DNA of 41,747 nucleotides from a virus, in the IMG/VR virus record IMGVR_UViG_3300025645_000154, positions 1 to 41,747 of that record. One strand, 5' to 3'. Positions within the stretch are counted from its first letter, which is position 1. Every line of letters starts with the position of its first letter. The notes under the pieces were generated by a model. The model did no database searches and had not been told where the DNA came from. It saw only the letters and a program-made list of their open reading frames with translations. The position numbers and the translations under genes are program-made. Shown piece by piece: positions 2,513 through 14,797 of this stretch.

Positions 2513-4222
2513 ATGTACTCAGAAAAATACATAGAAGCGTTAAAGAAAGATTTTAGGAACTTTGCTGCACATATTTGGATGGAGCTAGACCTACCACCCT
2601 TAACACCTGTACAGAATAGTATGGCTGAATATATACAACATGGTCCAAAGAGATTACAGATTTCGGCATTTAGAGGCTGTGGTAAGTCTTACTTAACTGC
2701 AGCATTTGTCTGTTGGTTATTGTGGAGAGACAATGAGTTAAAGATAATGGTTATATCAGCAGGTAAAGATAGAGCTGATGCTTTTGCTATATTTGTTAGG
2801 AACATGATTAAGGATATTGATTTACTTAAACACATGGAACCTGATAAATCAAAAGGTGAAAGAGCTACTCAGAACATCTTTGATATCAGAGGTTGTAAAG
2901 CATCTGGTTCTCCCTCACTTAAATCTGTCGGGATTAGTGGGCAGTTAACAGGTAGTCGTGCAGATGTTATTATTGCTGATGATATTGAAGTAGTATCAAA
3001 CTCAGCAACGCATGATCTTCGGGAGAAGTTAGCTCGGCTTGTAACAGAGTTTGATGCTGTACTCACACCAAGAGGTCGTATTATTTACTTAGGAACACCT
3101 CAGACAGAGTTGAGTCTCTACAACACGTTATATCAACGTGGTTATGATATGAAGATATGGACAGCTCTAATACCTACAGAGAAAGAAGCTGCAGGTTATG
3201 GTGCTAAGTTGTCTCAGTTTATTAGGGATTTAATGTTAACTATACCTAGTGGTACTACCACAGACCCCAAACGATTCTCGGACTCTGATTTAGCTGAAAG
3301 GAAATTATCCTATGGTCGATCTGGTTTTGCATTACAATTTATGCTAGATACAAGTTTGTCAGATGGTGACAAGTTCCCACTAAAGATAAATGATTTAGTC
3401 ATATCTAATGTAAGTCAAAAATTACCTACTGAAATATATTGGTCTAATAATCCTTTACTTAAATTAAAGGAGCTACCAAATGTTGCAATGGGTGGTCAAA
3501 ACTACTTTGCCCCTGAGACGCTCGATAAGGTGTCTCTAAGCTCTCCTGAGATGTCGGTGATGTCAATAGACCCTTCGGGGCGTGGGAAGGACGAGACAGC
3601 CTATTCTGTGGCTCTCATGCTACATGGTAATATCTTTGTCCCTAAGATTGGTGGATTTAAGGGTGGCTATGAAGATGAGACACTGATAGAGATTTGTAAC
3701 ATAGCGAAAAGATATAAAGTCAATAAGCTTATAGTCGAATCAAACTTTGGTGATGGTATGTTTTCTCAACTACTTAAGCCTCATCTAGGTAGAATATACC
3801 CCTGTGAGATAGAAGAAGTCCGGCAGAACATGCAGAAAGAACTCCGTATTATTGATACCTTAGAACCATTGATGAACCAACATAGACTGATAGTTGACCC
3901 AAGTGTTATACAGGATGACTATGATTCAGCAATGAAGAACTTTGAAACAGATAAGGCATTACAATATATGCTATTCTATCAAATGTCTAGATTATCGAAA
4001 GAACGTGGTTCACTGAAACATGATGATAGATTAGATTCACTTGCTATAGCATGTAAGTACTTTCTAGATATCTTAGACGTAGATCAGTCACTTAGAGCTA
4101 ACCAGTTGAAAGAAGAACAACTCGATGCCTCACTAGATAAATTCGTAGCTGAATGGTATGAAGATAATGGTGGTACGCAAAATCGGGGACTTAAGCTATG
4201 GGATAGATCACGAAAAAGCTAA
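2513..4222 (+). CDS. Terminase large subunit (DNA maturase B, gp19-like)
   Basis: This is the packaging motor: an N-terminal ATPase pumps DNA into the prohead and a C-terminal RNase H-like nuclease cuts the concatemer. Walker A is FRGCGKS (residues 53-59) and Walker B VIIADDIE (about 152-159). The nuclease acids are visible as MSIDPSG (D353), LIVESNFGDG and HDDRLDS (503-509). At 569 residues it is close to T7 gp19. It follows the small subunit with a 2-bp gap. Its stop codon overlaps the conserved upstream part of a phage promoter, so transcription restarts exactly here. Confidence 0.97.
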   Translation: MYSEKYIEALKKDFRNFAAHIWMELDLPPLTPVQNSMAEYIQHGPKRLQISAFRGCGKSYLTAAFVCWLLWRDNELKIMVISAGKDRADAFAIFVRNMIKDIDLLKHMEPDKSKGERATQNIFDIRGCKASGSPSLKSVGISGQLTGSRADVIIADDIEVVSNSATHDLREKLARLVTEFDAVLTPRGRIIYLGTPQTELSLYNTLYQRGYDMKIWTALIPTEKEAAGYGAKLSQFIRDLMLTIPSGTTTDPKRFSDSDLAERKLSYGRSGFALQFMLDTSLSDGDKFPLKINDLVISNVSQKLPTEIYWSNNPLLKLKELPNVAMGGQNYFAPETLDKVSLSSPEMSVMSIDPSGRGKDETAYSVALMLHGNIFVPKIGGFKGGYEDETLIEICNIAKRYKVNKLIVESNFGDGMFSQLLKPHLGRIYPCEIEEVRQNMQKELRIIDTLEPLMNQHRLIVDPSVIQDDYDSAMKNFETDKALQYMLFYQMSRLSKERGSLKHDDRLDSLAIACKYFLDILDVDQSLRANQLKEEQLDASLDKFVAEWYEDNGGTQNRGLKLWDRSRKS

Positions 4223-5055: not shown

Positions 5056-5836
5056 TGCAATAATCTCCCTACAGTGAGAACTCGGTGTCACAAAGTGCCA
5101 CTTTCAGGTACTTAGAGAAATCACTCTCACTACAGGGAGAATTTATAAAAATTTCCAACAGGGAGTATATTAAACAAACCCGAGCGAGTTTCCCCCATCG
5201 AACACTTATTTGAAGACCCTAACACCTAGTACCCCCCTCAAACAATTAGTAACACCAAGCAACACCTGTCACCCTACTCTAACAACTGGTGCCACAAGGT
5301 AACACTCGGTGTAGTGGTATGACATTTGTTGTATTAGGTTGACCTACTATGGTTTATTAGTGTTGCAAGGTGCAATCTGGTGTTGCTTGGTGCAACTCTG
5401 TGTCATAATGACATAGCACTATCTTTTTTCAATTGAACACCTAGAACACCTAGGACACCACGTAACACCACGACTACATCAAGTGACACCAATACAAGCA
5501 GCATCTATATAGAGTAGCTTAGAGGTGGTACTGAGAGGCTTAGAGGTGCATACCTAGTGTTACCTAGTGTACATGTAGTAGATACACGTTCCTTTATATA
5601 CATTATTATCAGCAGTGGTACCTAGTGACTACCGCTAACCGCTTGATATCAGACCTGTCAACCACCTAGCACTATGTTTTTTCACCTTTAAGTTACTGAT
5701 ATTATAGGAATAAGTGAAGAAAGTATGTACTAGGGCTAAATATTATTTGACAGCGGTCGATAGGTCTGTTAGTATGATTGTAGACCTTGACTAGCAAATA
5801 GCTACTCATTAAAACACACTAACTAAGGAGTTAAAC
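5056..5836. other. Long repeat-rich non-coding region, candidate site of the genome ends
   Basis: I see no convincing gene. The stretch holds a 16-bp imperfect inverted repeat (TCTCCCTACAGTGAGA at 5064-5079; TCTCACTACAGGGAGA at 5125-5140), many copies of AACACC, ACACCTAG and their complements, a 13-bp palindrome TGTCATAATGACA (near 5402), and a repeated GCACTATSTTTTTTCA (near 5417 and 5680). A host promoter closes it at 5747. In T7 the terminal repeat lies between the terminase and early-promoter regions, so the physical ends are probably here. No terminal repeat can be proved from a collapsed assembly. Confidence 0.6.
5747..5775 (+). promoter_or_regulatory. Strong host sigma70 early promoter
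   Basis: A perfect -35 TTGACA (5747-5752) is followed after 17 bp by TAGTAT (5770-5775), preceded by TG at 5767-5768 as in extended -10 elements. It stands 62 bp before the first well-spaced early gene (5837). It is the best candidate for the equivalent of the T7 A1-A3 promoters, read by host RNA polymerase until the phage enzyme is made. Confidence 0.75.
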
Positions 5837-5998
5837 ATGTGTCATAAATCTTTGAAACTACACCAGACAATCAATAAGGTGGACGTTAGAGGGAAGTTGC
5901 GAGAGAAATCAGCACCTAAACAAAAAGTAACTATTAAACAAATTAAGGTTACTGATGCTGAACGATTTTTCTTGAAACATGAAGATGTATTAAACTAA
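5837..5998 (+). CDS. Small basic early protein (53 aa)
   Basis: This is the first gene after the host promoter. ATG follows AAGGAG at 7 bp spacing. The product is Lys/Gln-rich and soluble (begins MCHKSLKLHQT, ends HEDVLN) without a recognised domain. First-expressed T7-like genes often encode small inhibitors of host defence or takeover factors, and this position invites the same guess. Nothing in the sequence identifies its target. Confidence 0.55.
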   Translation: MCHKSLKLHQTINKVDVRGKLREKSAPKQKVTIKQIKVTDAERFFLKHEDVLN

Positions 5999-6011: not shown

Positions 6012-6122
6012 ATGAAGAAATTACTATTACTATGTGCCATGCTATTAATATGTGAGGCAATGATATGCGAAACTAACCAAACAGGTGAGCATACGTATAC
6101 CAAAATTGAACGAAACAAGTAA
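6012..6122 (+). CDS. Small protein with hydrophobic N-terminus (36 aa)
   Basis: The ATG stands behind CAGGGGTATTT, a modest ribosome site. The N-terminus (MKKLLLLCAMLLICEAM) is like a signal peptide or membrane anchor with Cys residues; the rest is polar. Its stop codon is followed within two bases by hammerhead ribozyme candidate 1, so self-cleavage would trim its message just after the coding part. Function is unknown. Confidence 0.45.
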   Translation: MKKLLLLCAMLLICEAMICETNQTGEHTYTKIERNK

Positions 6123-6124
6123 GC

Positions 6125-6179
6125 CGAAACGACTCAAATAGGGTCGTCTACACCTAGCGATTAGGGGTGTACTGATGAG
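6125..6179 (+). ncRNA. Hammerhead ribozyme candidate 1 (type II)
   Basis: The core reads GAA (6126-6128), stem III ACGAC/GTCGT (6129-6133/6143-6147), C at the cleavage position (6148), stem I TACACC/GGTGTA (6149-6154/6166-6171), CTGATGA (6172-6178). All conserved core bases of the hammerhead are in the right order, with stem II open. Predicted cleavage is between 6148 and 6149. The weak point is stem II: only C6125-G6179 pairs next to the core. I therefore trust it less than the other two candidates. Confidence 0.75.
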
Positions 6180-6199
6180 TATCGCACTACATTCTAAAA

Positions 6200-6252
6200 C
6201 CTGTCTCGTACACTTGGTAGTCAATCCGTGTACAAGATAAAAGACAGGCGGC
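6200..6252 (+). ncRNA. Structured RNA element A (nested hairpins, GATAAAA loop)
   Basis: CCTGTC (6200-6205) pairs with GACAGG (6243-6248), and inside it GTACAC (6208-6213) with GTGTAC (6228-6233). An asymmetric AAGATAAAA bulge and a following CGGC complete it. The segment AAGATAAAA, then CAGGCGGC, recurs in element B. I cannot assign a known RNA family. The bulge recalls the AUAAAA internal loop of twister ribozymes, but the other twister parts are not convincing. Confidence 0.4.
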
Positions 6253-6322
6253 TTAAGCTCCGAACATGGCTAGATAATGTAACTATCCACGGCTAGTCTA
6301 TGCTTAAGATAAAACAGGCGGC
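6252..6322 (+). ncRNA. Structured RNA element B (long hairpin, repeat of element A tail)
   Basis: CTTAAGC (6252-6258) pairs with GCTTAAG (6302-6308). The loop of about 43 nt contains GATA/TATC and repeated GGCTAG words. It is followed by AAGATAAAACAGGCGGC (6306-6322), the same tail as in element A but lacking GA. Tandem, related structures of this kind suggest duplication of a functional RNA. There is no family match that I know. Confidence 0.35.
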
Positions 6323-6415
6323 ATACTGCATATTCAAACTAATGTTTGAGGTGTAAAACTGCGTTATTGTATGTACGGTATTACTAGGTATAAACTAGCT
6401 AGTGAAAAAAGCAGG

Positions 6416-6595
6416 GGTTTTCCATATGTCACTGATACAATTGAACTCAAACAGGAAAATCGCTGTACAAACAAAAACAGGCGTACTCTATACCACTGAT
6501 AGAAATGAACTCAAGTAGGGGTATGTCTTAGAACAATTAATAACACCTAGTGTTAAGTGGTGCCAACACCATTACTTCAAGTAGGCACTAGGTGT
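6416..6595 (+). ncRNA. Three further hairpins sharing a TCAANYAGG motif
   Basis: Hairpin D pairs GGTTTTCC (6416-6423) with GGAAAATC (6454-6461). Hairpin E pairs ATACC (6491-6494 region) with GGTAT near 6520. Hairpin F pairs ACACCTAGTG (6543-6552) with CACTAGGTGT (6586-6595) around an inner TGGTG/CACCA stem. D and E both contain CACTGATA, five bases, GAACTCAA; D, E and F all have TCAANYAGG just before or at the 3' stem. No gene is seen here. Confidence 0.5.
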
Positions 6596-6601
6596 ATTTA
6601 T

Positions 6602-6653
6602 AACCGAAATACCAACAGGGTATCTTAGTCAATACAGGCTAACTGATGAGGTT
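6602..6653 (+). ncRNA. Hammerhead ribozyme candidate 2 (type II), overlaps a ribosome site
   Basis: Stem II AACC/GGTT (6602-6605/6650-6653), GAA (6606-6608), stem III ATACC/GGTAT (6609-6613/6619-6623), C at 6624, stem I TTAGTC/GGCTAA (6625-6630/6637-6642, one G-U pair), CTGATGA (6643-6649). All conserved core bases fit, with predicted cleavage between 6624 and 6625. The GAGG at 6648-6651, made of the core end and stem II, is also the Shine-Dalgarno of the gene starting at 6658. Folding and translation should therefore exclude each other. Confidence 0.85.
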
Positions 6654-6657
6654 TATT

Positions 6658-6762
6658 ATGGTACAATTTATAATAGGACTAATACTTATGTATTGGTCAG
6701 CTGCTATAGGGTGGTTCTTACTATGTCATACCGTTAGAATAGTAGGTAAACTATGCAAGTAA
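6658..6762 (+). CDS. Micro-protein with one membrane helix (34 aa)
   Basis: The ATG lies 6 bp after GAGG, which is part of the hammerhead at 6602-6653. The product begins MVQFIIGLILMYWSAAIGWF and is mostly a membrane helix, followed by a basic tail (RIVGKLCK). It overlaps the next gene by 10 bp. Function unknown. The ribozyme-borne ribosome site suggests that its synthesis is tied to RNA folding or cleavage. Confidence 0.5.
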   Translation: MVQFIIGLILMYWSAAIGWFLLCHTVRIVGKLCK

Positions 6763-6923: not shown

Positions 6924-7080
6924 GAAAAGAACAACAGGGCAACTATTTGATGCTAAAAAGCAATTCATTAAAGACTTGAACTGTACTAAAATACACCTAA
7001 GTGAAATAAACATAGGGCTTATCTATACTAACTTAGATTACATAGATCAAGAGCTACATAGGAGATATATAAATGGGTAG
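6904..7080 (+). CDS. Small hypothetical early protein (58 aa)
   Basis: The start is supported by GAGGAGG 7 bp before the ATG. The sequence begins MLKEWYKKRTTG, looks helical and soluble, and has no recognised motif. It overlaps both neighbours, as expected for compact early phage genes. No function can be proposed. Confidence 0.55.
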   Translation: MLKEWYKKRTTGQLFDAKKQFIKDLNCTKIHLSEINIGLIYTNLDYIDQELHRRYING

Positions 7081-7198
7081 ATTAATCAATTTTCCAGAAA
7101 GAAACACAATAAGAATATGGCTTGTAATGCTTAGAGAAAGTAAGAACTTCCATGCTTTCAATGCAAGTCCAATAATCAAACCAAGAAGCGTAGCTTAA
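7073..7198 (+). CDS. Small hypothetical early protein (41 aa)
   Basis: The ATG overlaps the end of the previous gene and follows TAGGAG. The product is short and basic (MGRLINFPERNTIRIW at the start). No motif recognised. It is the last coding sequence before hammerhead candidate 3, so cleavage there would set its mRNA 3' end. Confidence 0.5.
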   Translation: MGRLINFPERNTIRIWLVMLRESKNFHAFNASPIIKPRSVA

Positions 7199-7235: not shown

Positions 7236-7298
7236 TAACGAAAATGCCTCAATCGAGGCGTTCTAGTGCAAGGTTTAATATGCACTACTGATGAGTTA
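7236..7298 (+). ncRNA. Hammerhead ribozyme candidate 3 (type II), best match
   Basis: Stem II TAAC/GTTA (7236-7239/7295-7298), GAA (7240-7242), stem III AATGCCTC/GAGGCGTT (7243-7250/7255-7262, 8 bp with one G-U), C at the cleavage position 7263, stem I TAGTGCA/TGCACTA (7264-7270/7281-7287, 7 bp) and CTGATGA (7288-7294). All conserved core bases and pairs fit a hammerhead with stem II open. Predicted cleavage is between 7263 and 7264, 66 nt before the ATG at 7330. Confidence 0.93.
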
Positions 7299-7329
7299 AC
7301 AGGCGATTATGCCTCAATAGGAGATTACA

Positions 7330-7656
7330 ATGACTAAAGTTACAACAACACCTAAAAAGAAAGCAGCAACAAAGAAGACAACAACACCTAAAAAAGCCGT
7401 GAAACTAACTATGAATCAATATGACATTCCAATGTTAGAAATTCCTACTAATACTAGACCTGTATTTATCTCAGTAAAGAAAGCCTTAGCTATCTTAGAA
7501 ACTGAAAACGATGCAAGCTTAATCACTACAGTTGAGAAGTATGGTAGAGAGCTTACTAATATCTCTTATGGTGATGGTAAGTCATTCAATGTAGGGCTTG
7601 TTAAGATTGAGGCTGTATTAGCAGCTAAGAAACTGATTGTTAAAGCAGTAGCATAG
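7330..7656 (+). CDS. Hypothetical protein with Lys/Thr-rich histone-like tail (108 aa)
   Basis: The first 27 residues are a repeated Thr-Pro-Lys-Lys tail (TTTPKKKAATKKTTTPKKAV) like that of histone H1-like proteins, so non-specific DNA binding is likely. The remaining 80 residues form an unrecognised compact domain (EIPTNTRPVFISVKKALAIL, later KKLIVKAVA). AGGAG stands 6 bp before the ATG, downstream of the hammerhead at 7236. It may be a capsid- or nucleoid-associated early factor, but this is a guess from the tail. Confidence 0.7.
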   Translation: MTKVTTTPKKKAATKKTTTPKKAVKLTMNQYDIPMLEIPTNTRPVFISVKKALAILETENDASLITTVEKYGRELTNISYGDGKSFNVGLVKIEAVLAAKKLIVKAVA

Positions 7657-11536: not shown

Positions 11537-13972
11537 ATGTTAAAAACACAACTAGAAATTGAACAAGAGAACTTACAGATTATGATTACAAAGGGTGTCA
11601 ACGAGTTACAACAGGCGAAACAATCTGGCACAGTATCAGACCTTAAGCACAGCGGTGCTGTAGTACCTTACTACGTAGGTGGTCTAGCTAACAGTCTTAA
11701 GTTATACTCAGATCAAGTACTTATGGGTAAGGCTAAGATTAAAGCTTTACCTGCTAAGATGCTTACTGTGTTAGACCCTCTAGTTGTAGCACATTATACC
11801 GTGAAAGCACTTGTTGACTCAGCAGGTAAGAAGCATACAAATATTGTAGCCATAGGACAGAAGTTAGCTAACTATTTACAGACTGAATACAAGGTATCTC
11901 TTATGGATGAAGAATCTCACAAGAGTTTTGTAGGGTTTATACAAGGTACTAGCTATAAGAATGACAGACAGTTCAAAGTAACTAATGGTATCCTACTTAA
12001 GTATCACGCTGCTATCTCTAAGAATACACTAAGCTTTTACAAGTTAGCAACCAAAGCACTAGTAGCTTTATCTGATATAAGACCTATTGTTAAGAATCAG
12101 ATTATGCCACCTATTTGTTTCATTAAAGAAAAGAAAGGTATTGAAACTAAAGTTGAAGTAGCTACATGGTTTAAAGAATGGTTAGCTGAAATGATTACAC
12201 AGAATGAAGGTATGATTTTACCTGAGTACCATACACCTCTAGTTGAGAAACCAATTGATTGGGATTGTACTTATGGTGGGGGTTTTCATAGTCCTCGTTT
12301 TAAATACAGACTAATCAAGACACAGGTTGACAAGGAAGTGTTCGGTACTAAACCCGTTAAGACATTAGAAGCTGTCAATAGATTACAAGGTACTAAATGG
12401 AGAGTCAATAAGAAGGTACTAGAAGTAATGCTTGCATCTAGTGAGAATGATCTTGGTTGGGGTGAGTTACCAACACCTTATATAGCTAAGGATTATTTAA
12501 CACCATGCCCACATTCAGATATTGATAATGAGTTTCTTACAGCGGAACAAAAGGAAGCTAGGAGAATATGGCGTATGCAATCTGCACCTCATTACTCAGA
12601 ACAAGAGGCTAGAAACTCTAAGGTACTAGCTTCTAAGAGAGTGTTAATTGAGGCTAATAGGTTTAAAGATTATGAAGAGATTTACTTTGCTTATTTTTGT
12701 GACTTTAGAGGGCGTATATATCCCAAGGCTAGTAATCTGCATCCACAAGGTACAGACTATGTTAAAAGTTTGTTAGAGTTTAGCGAAGGTAAGGCTATAG
12801 TTAGTCGAACTGCAGAAATGTATTTTTTCATGCAAGGGGCTAATAGTTTTGGACACGGTTTAGACAAATGTACATTACAGGAGAAAGAAGCTTGGGTAAT
12901 AGAGAATGAGTCTAGGATAATATCAAGTGCAGATAATCCTTATAATTTAGACTCATTGTGGCATGAATCAGATGAAGACCCTTGGTTATTTCTAGCATTT
13001 TGTTTTGAATTTAGAGACTATATTAATAGTGATTTAAATGAGGATTTTGTATCTCACCTACCAATTGCATTTGATGGTAGCTGTAATGGATTACAACATC
13101 TGAGTGCTATGCTACTAGATGAGGTCGGAGGAGAAGCCGTTAACCTAGCCTCTAAGCCTTCCAAACAGGATATCTATGATACGGTAAGGGTTAAGGCTGT
13201 AAAGCTCTTAGAAGACGACTCAGAGCCTCTGGCAGCAGAGTTACTTAAGTTCGGGATAACACGTAAGGCATGTAAAAGACCTGTTATGATCGTACCATAC
13301 GCAGGTACACAGAGAGCATGTAGGAGATACATAATAGAACAGGTACTTAAGGAAGGTGGTCAAGATTTCTTTGGAGATAACCTACAAGAAGCTATTACAA
13401 TGTACACAGCAGCAGTATGGGAAGCAATTAACCAAACTATTGTAAAAGGTAGAGAAGTTATGAGCTTACTTAAGGATATTGCACGAGAGTGTCTAGAGAA
13501 TACAGGTGGTAATACTATTACTTGGATAACACCTAATGGCTTCGAGGTGAAACAGAAGATCACCAGAGTACATAACATAGCTGTTAAGACACCAATTGGT
13601 AACAGTATAAAGGAACGTGGATATATCCAGAACCTTGTACAAGAAGCCACAGAGGAGCCTAATAGACGTAAGCATGGTACTGCTATAGCACCTAACTTAG
13701 TACACAGCTTAGATGCATGTCATTTACAGGATACTGTATTGAGTATGCCGATTGGAACTAGCTTTGCCATGATACATGATTCTTTTGGCTGTCACGCTGC
13801 AGATGCAGAGCTTCTTAGTAAGAATATCAGAGAGATATTTGTTGAGATGTATAAAGATGGTGATTATATAAAGGGTTTTATGGGTGCACTAGGTGTTACC
13901 AGTATAGAGATACCAGAGAAAGGAACATTAGACTTGAGTTTAGTGTTAACAGATGAATTTTTCTTTTCATAA
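11537..13972 (+). CDS. Phage single-subunit RNA polymerase (T7 gp1-like)
   Basis: This enzyme transcribes the middle and late genes from the phage promoters and primes replication. DFRGR (389-393), motif A with Asp513 (DGSCNGLQH), motif B with Arg576, Lys580 and Tyr588, and motif C HDSFG with catalytic Asp748 are all present. At 811 residues it is about 70 shorter than T7 RNA polymerase, mainly before motif A, so the promoter-contact parts may differ. AGGAG precedes the ATG. The cognate promoters are those at 4221, 14290 and 14351. Confidence 0.97.
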   Translation: MLKTQLEIEQENLQIMITKGVNELQQAKQSGTVSDLKHSGAVVPYYVGGLANSLKLYSDQVLMGKAKIKALPAKMLTVLDPLVVAHYTVKALVDSAGKKHTNIVAIGQKLANYLQTEYKVSLMDEESHKSFVGFIQGTSYKNDRQFKVTNGILLKYHAAISKNTLSFYKLATKALVALSDIRPIVKNQIMPPICFIKEKKGIETKVEVATWFKEWLAEMITQNEGMILPEYHTPLVEKPIDWDCTYGGGFHSPRFKYRLIKTQVDKEVFGTKPVKTLEAVNRLQGTKWRVNKKVLEVMLASSENDLGWGELPTPYIAKDYLTPCPHSDIDNEFLTAEQKEARRIWRMQSAPHYSEQEARNSKVLASKRVLIEANRFKDYEEIYFAYFCDFRGRIYPKASNLHPQGTDYVKSLLEFSEGKAIVSRTAEMYFFMQGANSFGHGLDKCTLQEKEAWVIENESRIISSADNPYNLDSLWHESDEDPWLFLAFCFEFRDYINSDLNEDFVSHLPIAFDGSCNGLQHLSAMLLDEVGGEAVNLASKPSKQDIYDTVRVKAVKLLEDDSEPLAAELLKFGITRKACKRPVMIVPYAGTQRACRRYIIEQVLKEGGQDFFGDNLQEAITMYTAAVWEAINQTIVKGREVMSLLKDIARECLENTGGNTITWITPNGFEVKQKITRVHNIAVKTPIGNSIKERGYIQNLVQEATEEPNRRKHGTAIAPNLVHSLDACHLQDTVLSMPIGTSFAMIHDSFGCHAADAELLSKNIREIFVEMYKDGDYIKGFMGALGVTSIEIPEKGTLDLSLVLTDEFFFS

Positions 13973-14722: not shown

Positions 14723-14797
14723 CTAGGTGCCGCTCAATTGGTAGAGCAGCGAGATATAAATCGTGTGTTGTAGGTTCGATTCCTATCACCTAGACCA
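14723..14797 (+). tRNA. tRNA-like gene with an irregular anticodon arm
   Basis: Acceptor CTAGGTG/CACCTAG (14723-14729/14787-14793), D arm GCTC/GAGC (14732-14735/14744-14747), T arm GTAGG/CCTAT with loop TTCGATT (14770-14786), discriminator A and an encoded CCA (14795-14797) are all standard. The anticodon arm is not: GCGA pairs with TCGT (14749-14752/14761-14764), leaving GATATAAA, an 8-nt loop on a 4-bp stem (or a 6-nt loop closed by G-A). The gene is one base short of usual. No anticodon can be read with confidence. It may be a damaged tRNA or one with an altered role. Confidence 0.8.

Follow-up and report, generated by a model that had tools for sequence, protein, structure and literature searches.

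A type II hammerhead as one of three candidate RNA-processing sites in the early region of a T7-like phage

What could a hammerhead ribozyme be doing between two short reading frames in the early region of a T7-like phage? The question is raised by positions 7236-7298 (+ strand) of an IMG/VR virus record that was analysed over its full 41,747 nucleotides, hereafter the window. The most likely answer, to which we give a probability of roughly three in four, is that this element is a type II hammerhead and one of three sites at which an early transcript is processed, the other two releasing a 476-nt phage RNA. The motif can be read directly in the DNA; cleavage, co-transcription, the stability of the products and a function for the released RNA are what we infer from it.

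Hammerheads in the early region

The record describes a 41.7-kb virus with a gene for a T7-type RNA polymerase (RNAP) at 11537-13972 and a gp19-like large terminase gene at 2513-4222. It also has genes for a gp2.5-like SSB, a primase/helicase, a family A DNA polymerase, an exonuclease, a head-tail connector, a scaffold, a capsid and tail proteins. This is a T7-like (autographivirus) gene set, all of it on one strand. Among annotated phages, the best relatives are for the most part autographiviruses that infect Pelagibacter and Roseobacter, with about 40-50% protein identity for the DNA polymerase and the terminase, and none of the annotated phages gave a near DNA match to the window. A tRNA is called at 14723-14794 by Rfam (41.6 bits) and not by ARAGORN.

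An earlier, sequence-only reading had picked out the element at 7236-7298, here HHR-C, as a near-perfect type II hammerhead. Both direct reading and an explicit descriptor of the hammerhead core bear out the order of its parts: a 5' stem II strand (TAAC, 7236-7239), GAA (7240-7242), stem III (AATGCCTC-AATC-GAGGCGTT, 7243-7262), the cut-site C (7263), stem I (TAGTGCA...TGCACTA, 7264-7287), CTGATGA (7288-7294) and a 3' stem II strand (GTTA, 7295-7298). The predicted lengths of stems III, I and II (8, 7 and 4 bp, the last being TAAC/GTTA) and the cut between 7263 and 7264 agree with the descriptor to the base. The element is intergenic, flanked by reading frames at 7073-7198 and 7330-7656, and its MFE fold contains stems I and III.

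HHR-C does not stand alone. The same descriptor finds two further hammerheads on the + strand that had been overlooked, HHR-A (6125-6185) and HHR-B (6602-6653). HHR-A has its GAA at 6126, stems III, I and II of 7, 7 and 1 bp and a cut after C6148; a stem II of 1 bp is active in a published hammerhead example. Five nucleotides of its loop I (GCGAT, 6157-6161) are complementary to the tail (ATCGC, 6181-6185), which makes it a pseudoknot-type type II element. HHR-B has its GAA at 6606, stems of 5, 6 and 4 bp (stem II AACC/GGTT), a stem I loop of the form GTCA...AGGC, CTGATGA at 6643-6649 and a cut after C6624. The criterion that we used for a pseudoknot, the majority form described by Perreault et al. 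in 2011, is at least 4 bp between loop I and the tail past stem II. For HHR-B the complementarity consists of AATA/TATT only, and for HHR-C of TTAA/TTAA only, at best four A-U pairs and no clear pseudoknot, so the speed of HHR-C at physiological Mg2+ is uncertain. All three sites have the invariant core (GAA, A15.1-U16.1, H17 and CUGANGA, in the right order) and the type II topology, with stems I and III closed by loops and stem II open. The MFE structure of HHR-B is the full hammerhead and that of HHR-A is a different fold; the folding z-scores of A, B and C (-0.76, -0.23 and -1.80) are unremarkable.

The three hammerheads lie about 1.9-3.1 kb past the terminase gene and 4-5.4 kb ahead of the RNAP gene. 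The core, the topology, an independent covariance model (see below) and the gene content thus uphold the idea of a type II hammerhead in a T7-like early region; HHR-C is no single isolated element, being the third of three.

How often would such a layout arise by chance? We shuffled the whole window 1000 times, preserving dinucleotides, and searched both strands with the descriptor restricted to type II topology. The shuffles gave 18 matches with a stem II of at least 1 bp and 4 with at least 3 bp, which amounts to 0.018 and 0.004 matches per window; the window itself holds three and two.

The check proposed in the earlier reading, a score above the threshold of the Rfam Hammerhead_II model (RF02276), goes against HHR-C, which would count as refuted by that criterion. 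The sole match in the window is HHR-A (6122-6188, 37.8 bits, where the cut-off is 37), and neither HHR-B nor HHR-C is matched even at E<=10. Rfam fares no better on other contigs. With fast filters it reported one hammerhead in 15 contigs, nearly all of which carry sibling hammerheads, and when the filters were relaxed, on eight of these contigs, it reported three, only one of them above the cut-off. A different search path gave 41.3 bits for the first hammerhead of one related contig, L003, so the filters also lose some. Since Rfam misses nearly all of the siblings, its miss of HHR-C is not decisive.

For the same reason we built a covariance model of our own, R1, from 26 hammerheads of other contigs, none of them from the window. 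R1 finds HHR-B at 49.7 bits (E 1.4e-13), HHR-A at 23.2 (4.6e-5) and HHR-C at 22.6 (7.2e-5), with no further matches in the window; the score of HHR-B is favoured, and those of A and C less affected, because the pattern by which most of the 26 were collected took HHR-B and its relatives as its template. In the underlying alignment 95% of cells are paired and 9 of 13 pairs show changes on both sides, a covariation that is partly built in because a pattern and a pairing descriptor had served to gather the hammerheads. Changes at core position 7 among the siblings were excluded as evidence, as pattern and descriptor let only that position vary.

A structured RNA between two predicted cut sites

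The segment between the cut sites of HHR-A and HHR-B (6149-6624, + strand, 476 nt) is predicted to be an excised, structured non-coding RNA (ncRNA), on the grounds of its conservation, its folding z-score and its compensatory helices. A coding role was considered and rejected: the segment holds short reading frames (42 and 38 amino acids, at 6371-6518), none of which is kept in relatives. It belongs to no Rfam 15 family; Hammerhead_II is matched at its edge, and the other low-scoring matches are at chance level.

In IMG/VR the terminase as a query leads to three contigs of the same lineage, L003 (84%), L004 (77%) and G004 (69%, also listed as L005). The RNAP and the protein encoded at 7330 led to no relatives there. 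A fifth genome, L104, was reached through a motif of the ncRNA. In GTDB genomes the motif used for the ncRNA has no match, and a second ncRNA pattern finds, besides the four relatives, 11 IMG/VR contigs of unrelated sequence. In the region past the large terminase L003, L004 and L104 have two hammerheads each and G004 has one, and the ncRNA is kept in all four. It lies between two hammerheads in the window, in L003 (514 nt) and in L104 (495 nt). The L004 copy has a 3' hammerhead only, with a promoter-like site directly upstream of the ncRNA, and the G004 copy has a 5' hammerhead only, so double excision is not universal. Among about 70 other, more distant terminase-related contigs R1 found no hammerhead; many of these are short contigs that may end before the region.

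Several other features of the neighbourhood are worth recording. A small basic protein of the form MC(H/R/S/K)...LH...FFL..ED(V/I)L is encoded at 5837-5998 of the window and adjoins the ncRNA in all five genomes (in L003 at 3619, in L004 at 4092, and likewise in G004 and L104); it is a possible partner of the ncRNA. Pentapeptide-repeat-like proteins are encoded in the early regions of L004 (5246-6037) and of another contig, L080 (reverse strand, ~1224-1718), and are absent from that place in the window. The heptamer ACAGGCG occurs at 6244, 6314, 6477 and 7299, i.e. four times in 1.1 kb against five on the whole + strand; most of these copies precede ncRNA hairpins, one lies in the tail of HHR-C, and similar ACAGGC copies occur in L003.

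All five ncRNAs share a conserved sequence framework. The MFE of the whole ncRNA is lower than that of 100 out of 100 shuffles in the window (z -3.15) and in L003 (z -3.70), and is weaker in L104 (z -1.82). MAFFT and RNAalifold gave a poor global consensus on the five full sequences, so the helices were examined one by one. For each helix, with arms picked by eye, we compared the pairing of a genome's own arms with that of arms swapped between genomes. A 5' hairpin (6200-6248) contains helix a (32/35 pairs with own arms against 75/140 with swapped arms) and helix b (29/34 against 48/132), and ends in a UUGG loop (6214-6217). Two hairpins follow, HP1 (6411-6466), whose inner helix pairs at 26/26 against 51/74, and HP2 (6478-6530), at 36/38 against 55/104. 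Finally a three-way junction (6542-6596), with a CCAA loop at 6563-6566, abuts HHR-B. Its outer helix pairs at 36/36 against 39/90 and its inner helix at 26/26 against 45/74, and it has the same MFE shape in four genomes despite diverged stems. Judged from these counts, the ncRNA helices carry compensatory changes between genomes.

HP1 and HP2 have different stems and the same apical motif, UAC-CAC-UGA-(11 nt ending UGAAC)-UCA-A-GUA, which in HP1 of the window is closed by UGU...ACA. This motif sits on two or three hairpins of each ncRNA. Across 11 copies (A2) four of its six pairs change on both sides, e.g. from UGA/UCA to UAG/CUA and UGG/CCA. UUGG is present in the 5' hairpin loop of all five genomes and CCAA in the junction loop of four, so that a loop-loop contact between the two is possible.

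The ncRNA has a real chance of being a new family. A fuller proposal, which we rate at somewhat under an even chance, is that there is a phage family of early, multi-domain ncRNAs of about 480 nt, each end of which is cut by a hammerhead of its own (5', a pseudoknotted type II; 3', a type II with a GTCANNNAGGC loop), and whose UAC-CAC-UGA/UGAAC hairpins would titrate or recruit some factor of the host or the phage as infection starts. The released RNA may act as a binding platform because one hairpin motif is repeated two or three times.

If the ends are made in this way, could they also be rejoined? The bracketed segment might be circularised or the flanking mRNA rejoined, either by ligation at a hammerhead made of mixed A and B halves or by host RtcB, which would join the 5'-OH to the cyclic phosphate. 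The upstream half of HHR-A (6117-6125) and the downstream half of HHR-B (6650-6657) can form a mixed stem II of 8 bp, longer than either native one, and between the two ends of the ncRNA itself 1-3 bp could form with the loop/tail pseudoknot of HHR-A kept. The mixed outer stem is not conserved, however, at 8 bp in the window, 5 in L003 and 2 in L104, and Perreault et al. sought spliced or circular products of clustered hammerheads and detected none (PMC3088659). We regard rejoining as very unlikely.

A last doubt is whether these motifs are active at all. They could be decayed or fortuitous hammerheads, relics of a mobile element, in a non-coding block that has a role at the DNA level, e.g. 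as a genome end or a replication start. The block does adjoin the genome-end side of the terminase, and the ncRNA module is placed differently among its neighbours in L004, where it lies ahead of the gene for the MCHK-like protein and elsewhere behind it. Yet the cores are intact while the stems of the ncRNA and the hammerheads change in a compensatory manner, which neither decay nor a DNA function would preserve, and three hammerheads stand where chance would supply about 0.02. We consider this explanation highly improbable, and return to that of active processing sites.

Ribozymes, neighbouring genes and the early transcript

Where hammerheads sit relative to genes is informative. Among 29 distinct type II hammerheads, 22 have a Shine-Dalgarno-like sequence and the start codon of a reading frame 8-50 nt past the core. 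The four that open an ncRNA (HHR-A, the first of L003, that of G004 and the first of L104) all lack a nearby ribosome-binding site and reading frame, so the rule holds for 22 of the remaining 25 and is missed by three. The two sets at the ncRNA ends also differ in their loops. At the 5' end, loop I is complementary to the tail in the window (GCGAT/ATCGC), L104 (TGACC/GGTCA) and G004 (GACC/GGTC), and by eye, with a bulge, in L003; at the 3' end the stem I loop is GTCANNNAGGC or, in the window, GTCAATACAGGC. HHR-C shows neither feature clearly.

HHR-C has the appearance of a processing site and lies 35 nt 5' of the gene at 7330-7656 (+ strand), which is preceded by AGGAG at 7319-7323 and encodes a protein of 108 amino acids that has no PHROG match and, by reading, homologues in all four relatives. 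No hammerhead precedes the homologous gene in any of these four; HHR-C is the least conserved of the three and specific to this genome. The sequence ATGCCTCAAT is present at just two places in the window, at 7244-7253 (the 5' strand of HHR-C stem III) and at 7309-7318, just before the ribosome-binding site. An alternative pairing with GAGGC is possible.

Such pairing would suit a different view, that the hammerheads are mainly cis regulators of the next gene and that excision is secondary. Before cleavage the ribosome-binding site would be masked within stem II or close to it; cutting, or some ligand or protein that alters cutting, would expose it. That most hammerheads lie 8-50 nt ahead of a start codon fits this view, as does the ATGCCTCAAT direct repeat (7244, 7309) beside the ribosome-binding site of the next gene. 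So does HHR-B, whose GAGG (6648-6651) lies partly inside stem II and at the Shine-Dalgarno position for the ATG at 6658, 8 nt past the core. In most siblings, however, the Shine-Dalgarno sequence is downstream of stem II and not inside it, and the 5' ncRNA hammerheads have no gene behind them. Cis regulation and processing are not mutually exclusive; as the main role, cis regulation strikes us as unlikely.

Processing of the early transcript, the reading we prefer, would begin at a probable host sigma-70 promoter at 5747-5775 (+ strand; TTGACA-17-TAGTAT, with an extended -10). This is the best of nine consensus matches in a region that has fewer such matches than its shuffles, and promoter-like sites are seen by eye at the equivalent place in relatives. 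A different sequence, GGTGGACTATAGAA, is probably a promoter of the phage RNAP and has three exact copies (4245, 14314 and 14375), none of them among the hammerheads. It is also seen after the terminase in L003 and, slightly altered, in L004 and L104.

We propose that host RNA polymerase starts near 5780 and places HHR-A, HHR-B and HHR-C in one RNA, in which each hammerhead would cut itself. The cuts of A (6148/6149) and B (6624/6625) would free the 476-nt RNA, and that of C (7263/7264) would detach the 7330 gene from those that precede it. When a hammerhead cleaves, one product is left with a 2',3'-cyclic phosphate and the other with a 5'-OH. Each upstream product would thus end in the stem III hairpin with the cyclic phosphate, and each downstream product would begin with the stem I hairpin and its 5'-OH. 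As the type II topology would cap both new ends with hairpins, exonucleases and RNase E should be slowed, and this would explain why hammerheads are found at the two ends of the ncRNA and shortly ahead of ribosome-binding sites.

How widespread is this arrangement? The pattern GTCANNNAGGCNNACTGANGAG finds 23 stretches in IMG/VR, most of them with one to four complete hammerheads. In the contigs L082-L100 (e.g. L097, L088, L085, L086, L090 and L096) one to four hammerheads stand right before start codons, and in L096 each of the types I, II and III is represented once. Four cultured pelagiphages carry early-region arrays: HTVC031P (MH598800; type III at two sites, II and I), HTVC168P (OR420735; III, I and II), HTVC142P (OR420754; III and I) and EXVC025P (MT375521; I, II and I). 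These arrays (loci L162-L168) were found with R1, with RF00008, whose matches are below the Rfam cut-off, and with the descriptor. Hammerheads of types I, II and III in cultured Pelagibacter phages are in and beside the early region and, where tested, not above the Rfam cut-off. The type I copies were found by the descriptor only; Rfam Hammerhead_1 had no match in 20 reference phages, where the control was silent as well. HTVC019P, HTVC021P, Syn5 and others tested gave no hammerhead with the models used.

The sequence-only reading had thought a hammerhead in an early region unusual. In the light of these cultured phages and of related IMG/VR contigs with similar early-region arrays the location is not unique, and clustered hammerheads around prophage genes were described as early as 2011 (PMC3088659). 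A phage form of the hammerhead that is widespread escapes the current Rfam model. Since HTVC031P, HTVC168P, HTVC142P and EXVC025P have similar arrays, our proposal can be tested in an existing cultured infection. In a literature search limited to non-subscription papers we came across nothing relevant on T7-like early processing, pelagiphage ribozymes or autographivirus hammerheads. For HHR-C, the motif had been read correctly and its setting incompletely.

Comparison with known systems

The three elements share their core, topology, frequent phage or prophage setting and short stem II with known type II hammerheads (PMC3088659, RF02276). HHR-A shares with them, in addition, the loop I/3'-tail pseudoknot, and it scores above the Rfam cut-off. 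HHR-B and HHR-C fail the Rfam model, and HHR-B falls in the set with a GTCANNNAGGC stem I loop and no evident pseudoknot.

Prophages of Clostridium scindens, Azorhizobium caulinodans and Agrobacterium tumefaciens likewise have several hammerheads per operon (PMC3088659). Cleavage in vitro has been shown for the clustered hammerheads of the three bacteria, and for those of A. tumefaciens in E. coli as well. Perreault et al. proposed in 2011 that such clusters cut long phage transcripts into gene-sized mRNAs (PMC3088659). The window differs from them in its T7-like early region and in that two hammerheads flank a conserved structured ncRNA and not genes. While clusters in prophages were already known (PMC3088659), a structured RNA bracketed by hammerheads appears to be new.

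The vrRNA arrays of VIPR (preprint PMC13142463) also consist of small phage RNAs separated by hammerheads. Compared by RNA alone, they differ in having 9-16 tandem YNNGG repeats; positions 6149-6624 contain no YNNGG run of two or more, and form one structured RNA of 476 nt. The large ornate RNAs GOLLD, ROOL and OLE (PMC12286853) are likewise conserved multi-hairpin ncRNAs, some of them in phages, and the possible UUGG/CCAA contact adds to the likeness. The ncRNA described here is without an Rfam match, smaller than these and flanked by hammerheads.

The purpose of bacterial and phage hammerheads has been an open question since 2011. A conserved pair of them placed exactly where a conserved RNA begins and ends, and others just before ribosome-binding sites, point to a concrete job, namely making RNA ends in early phage transcripts. 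A functional parallel is T7 itself, whose early RNA is cut between genes by host RNase III. In both cases an early polycistronic RNA is, or would be, cut between genes to give products with hairpins at their ends. The ribozymes would do for this early transcript what host RNase III does for the early mRNA of T7, with the difference that here the RNA would cut itself, independently of the host enzyme.
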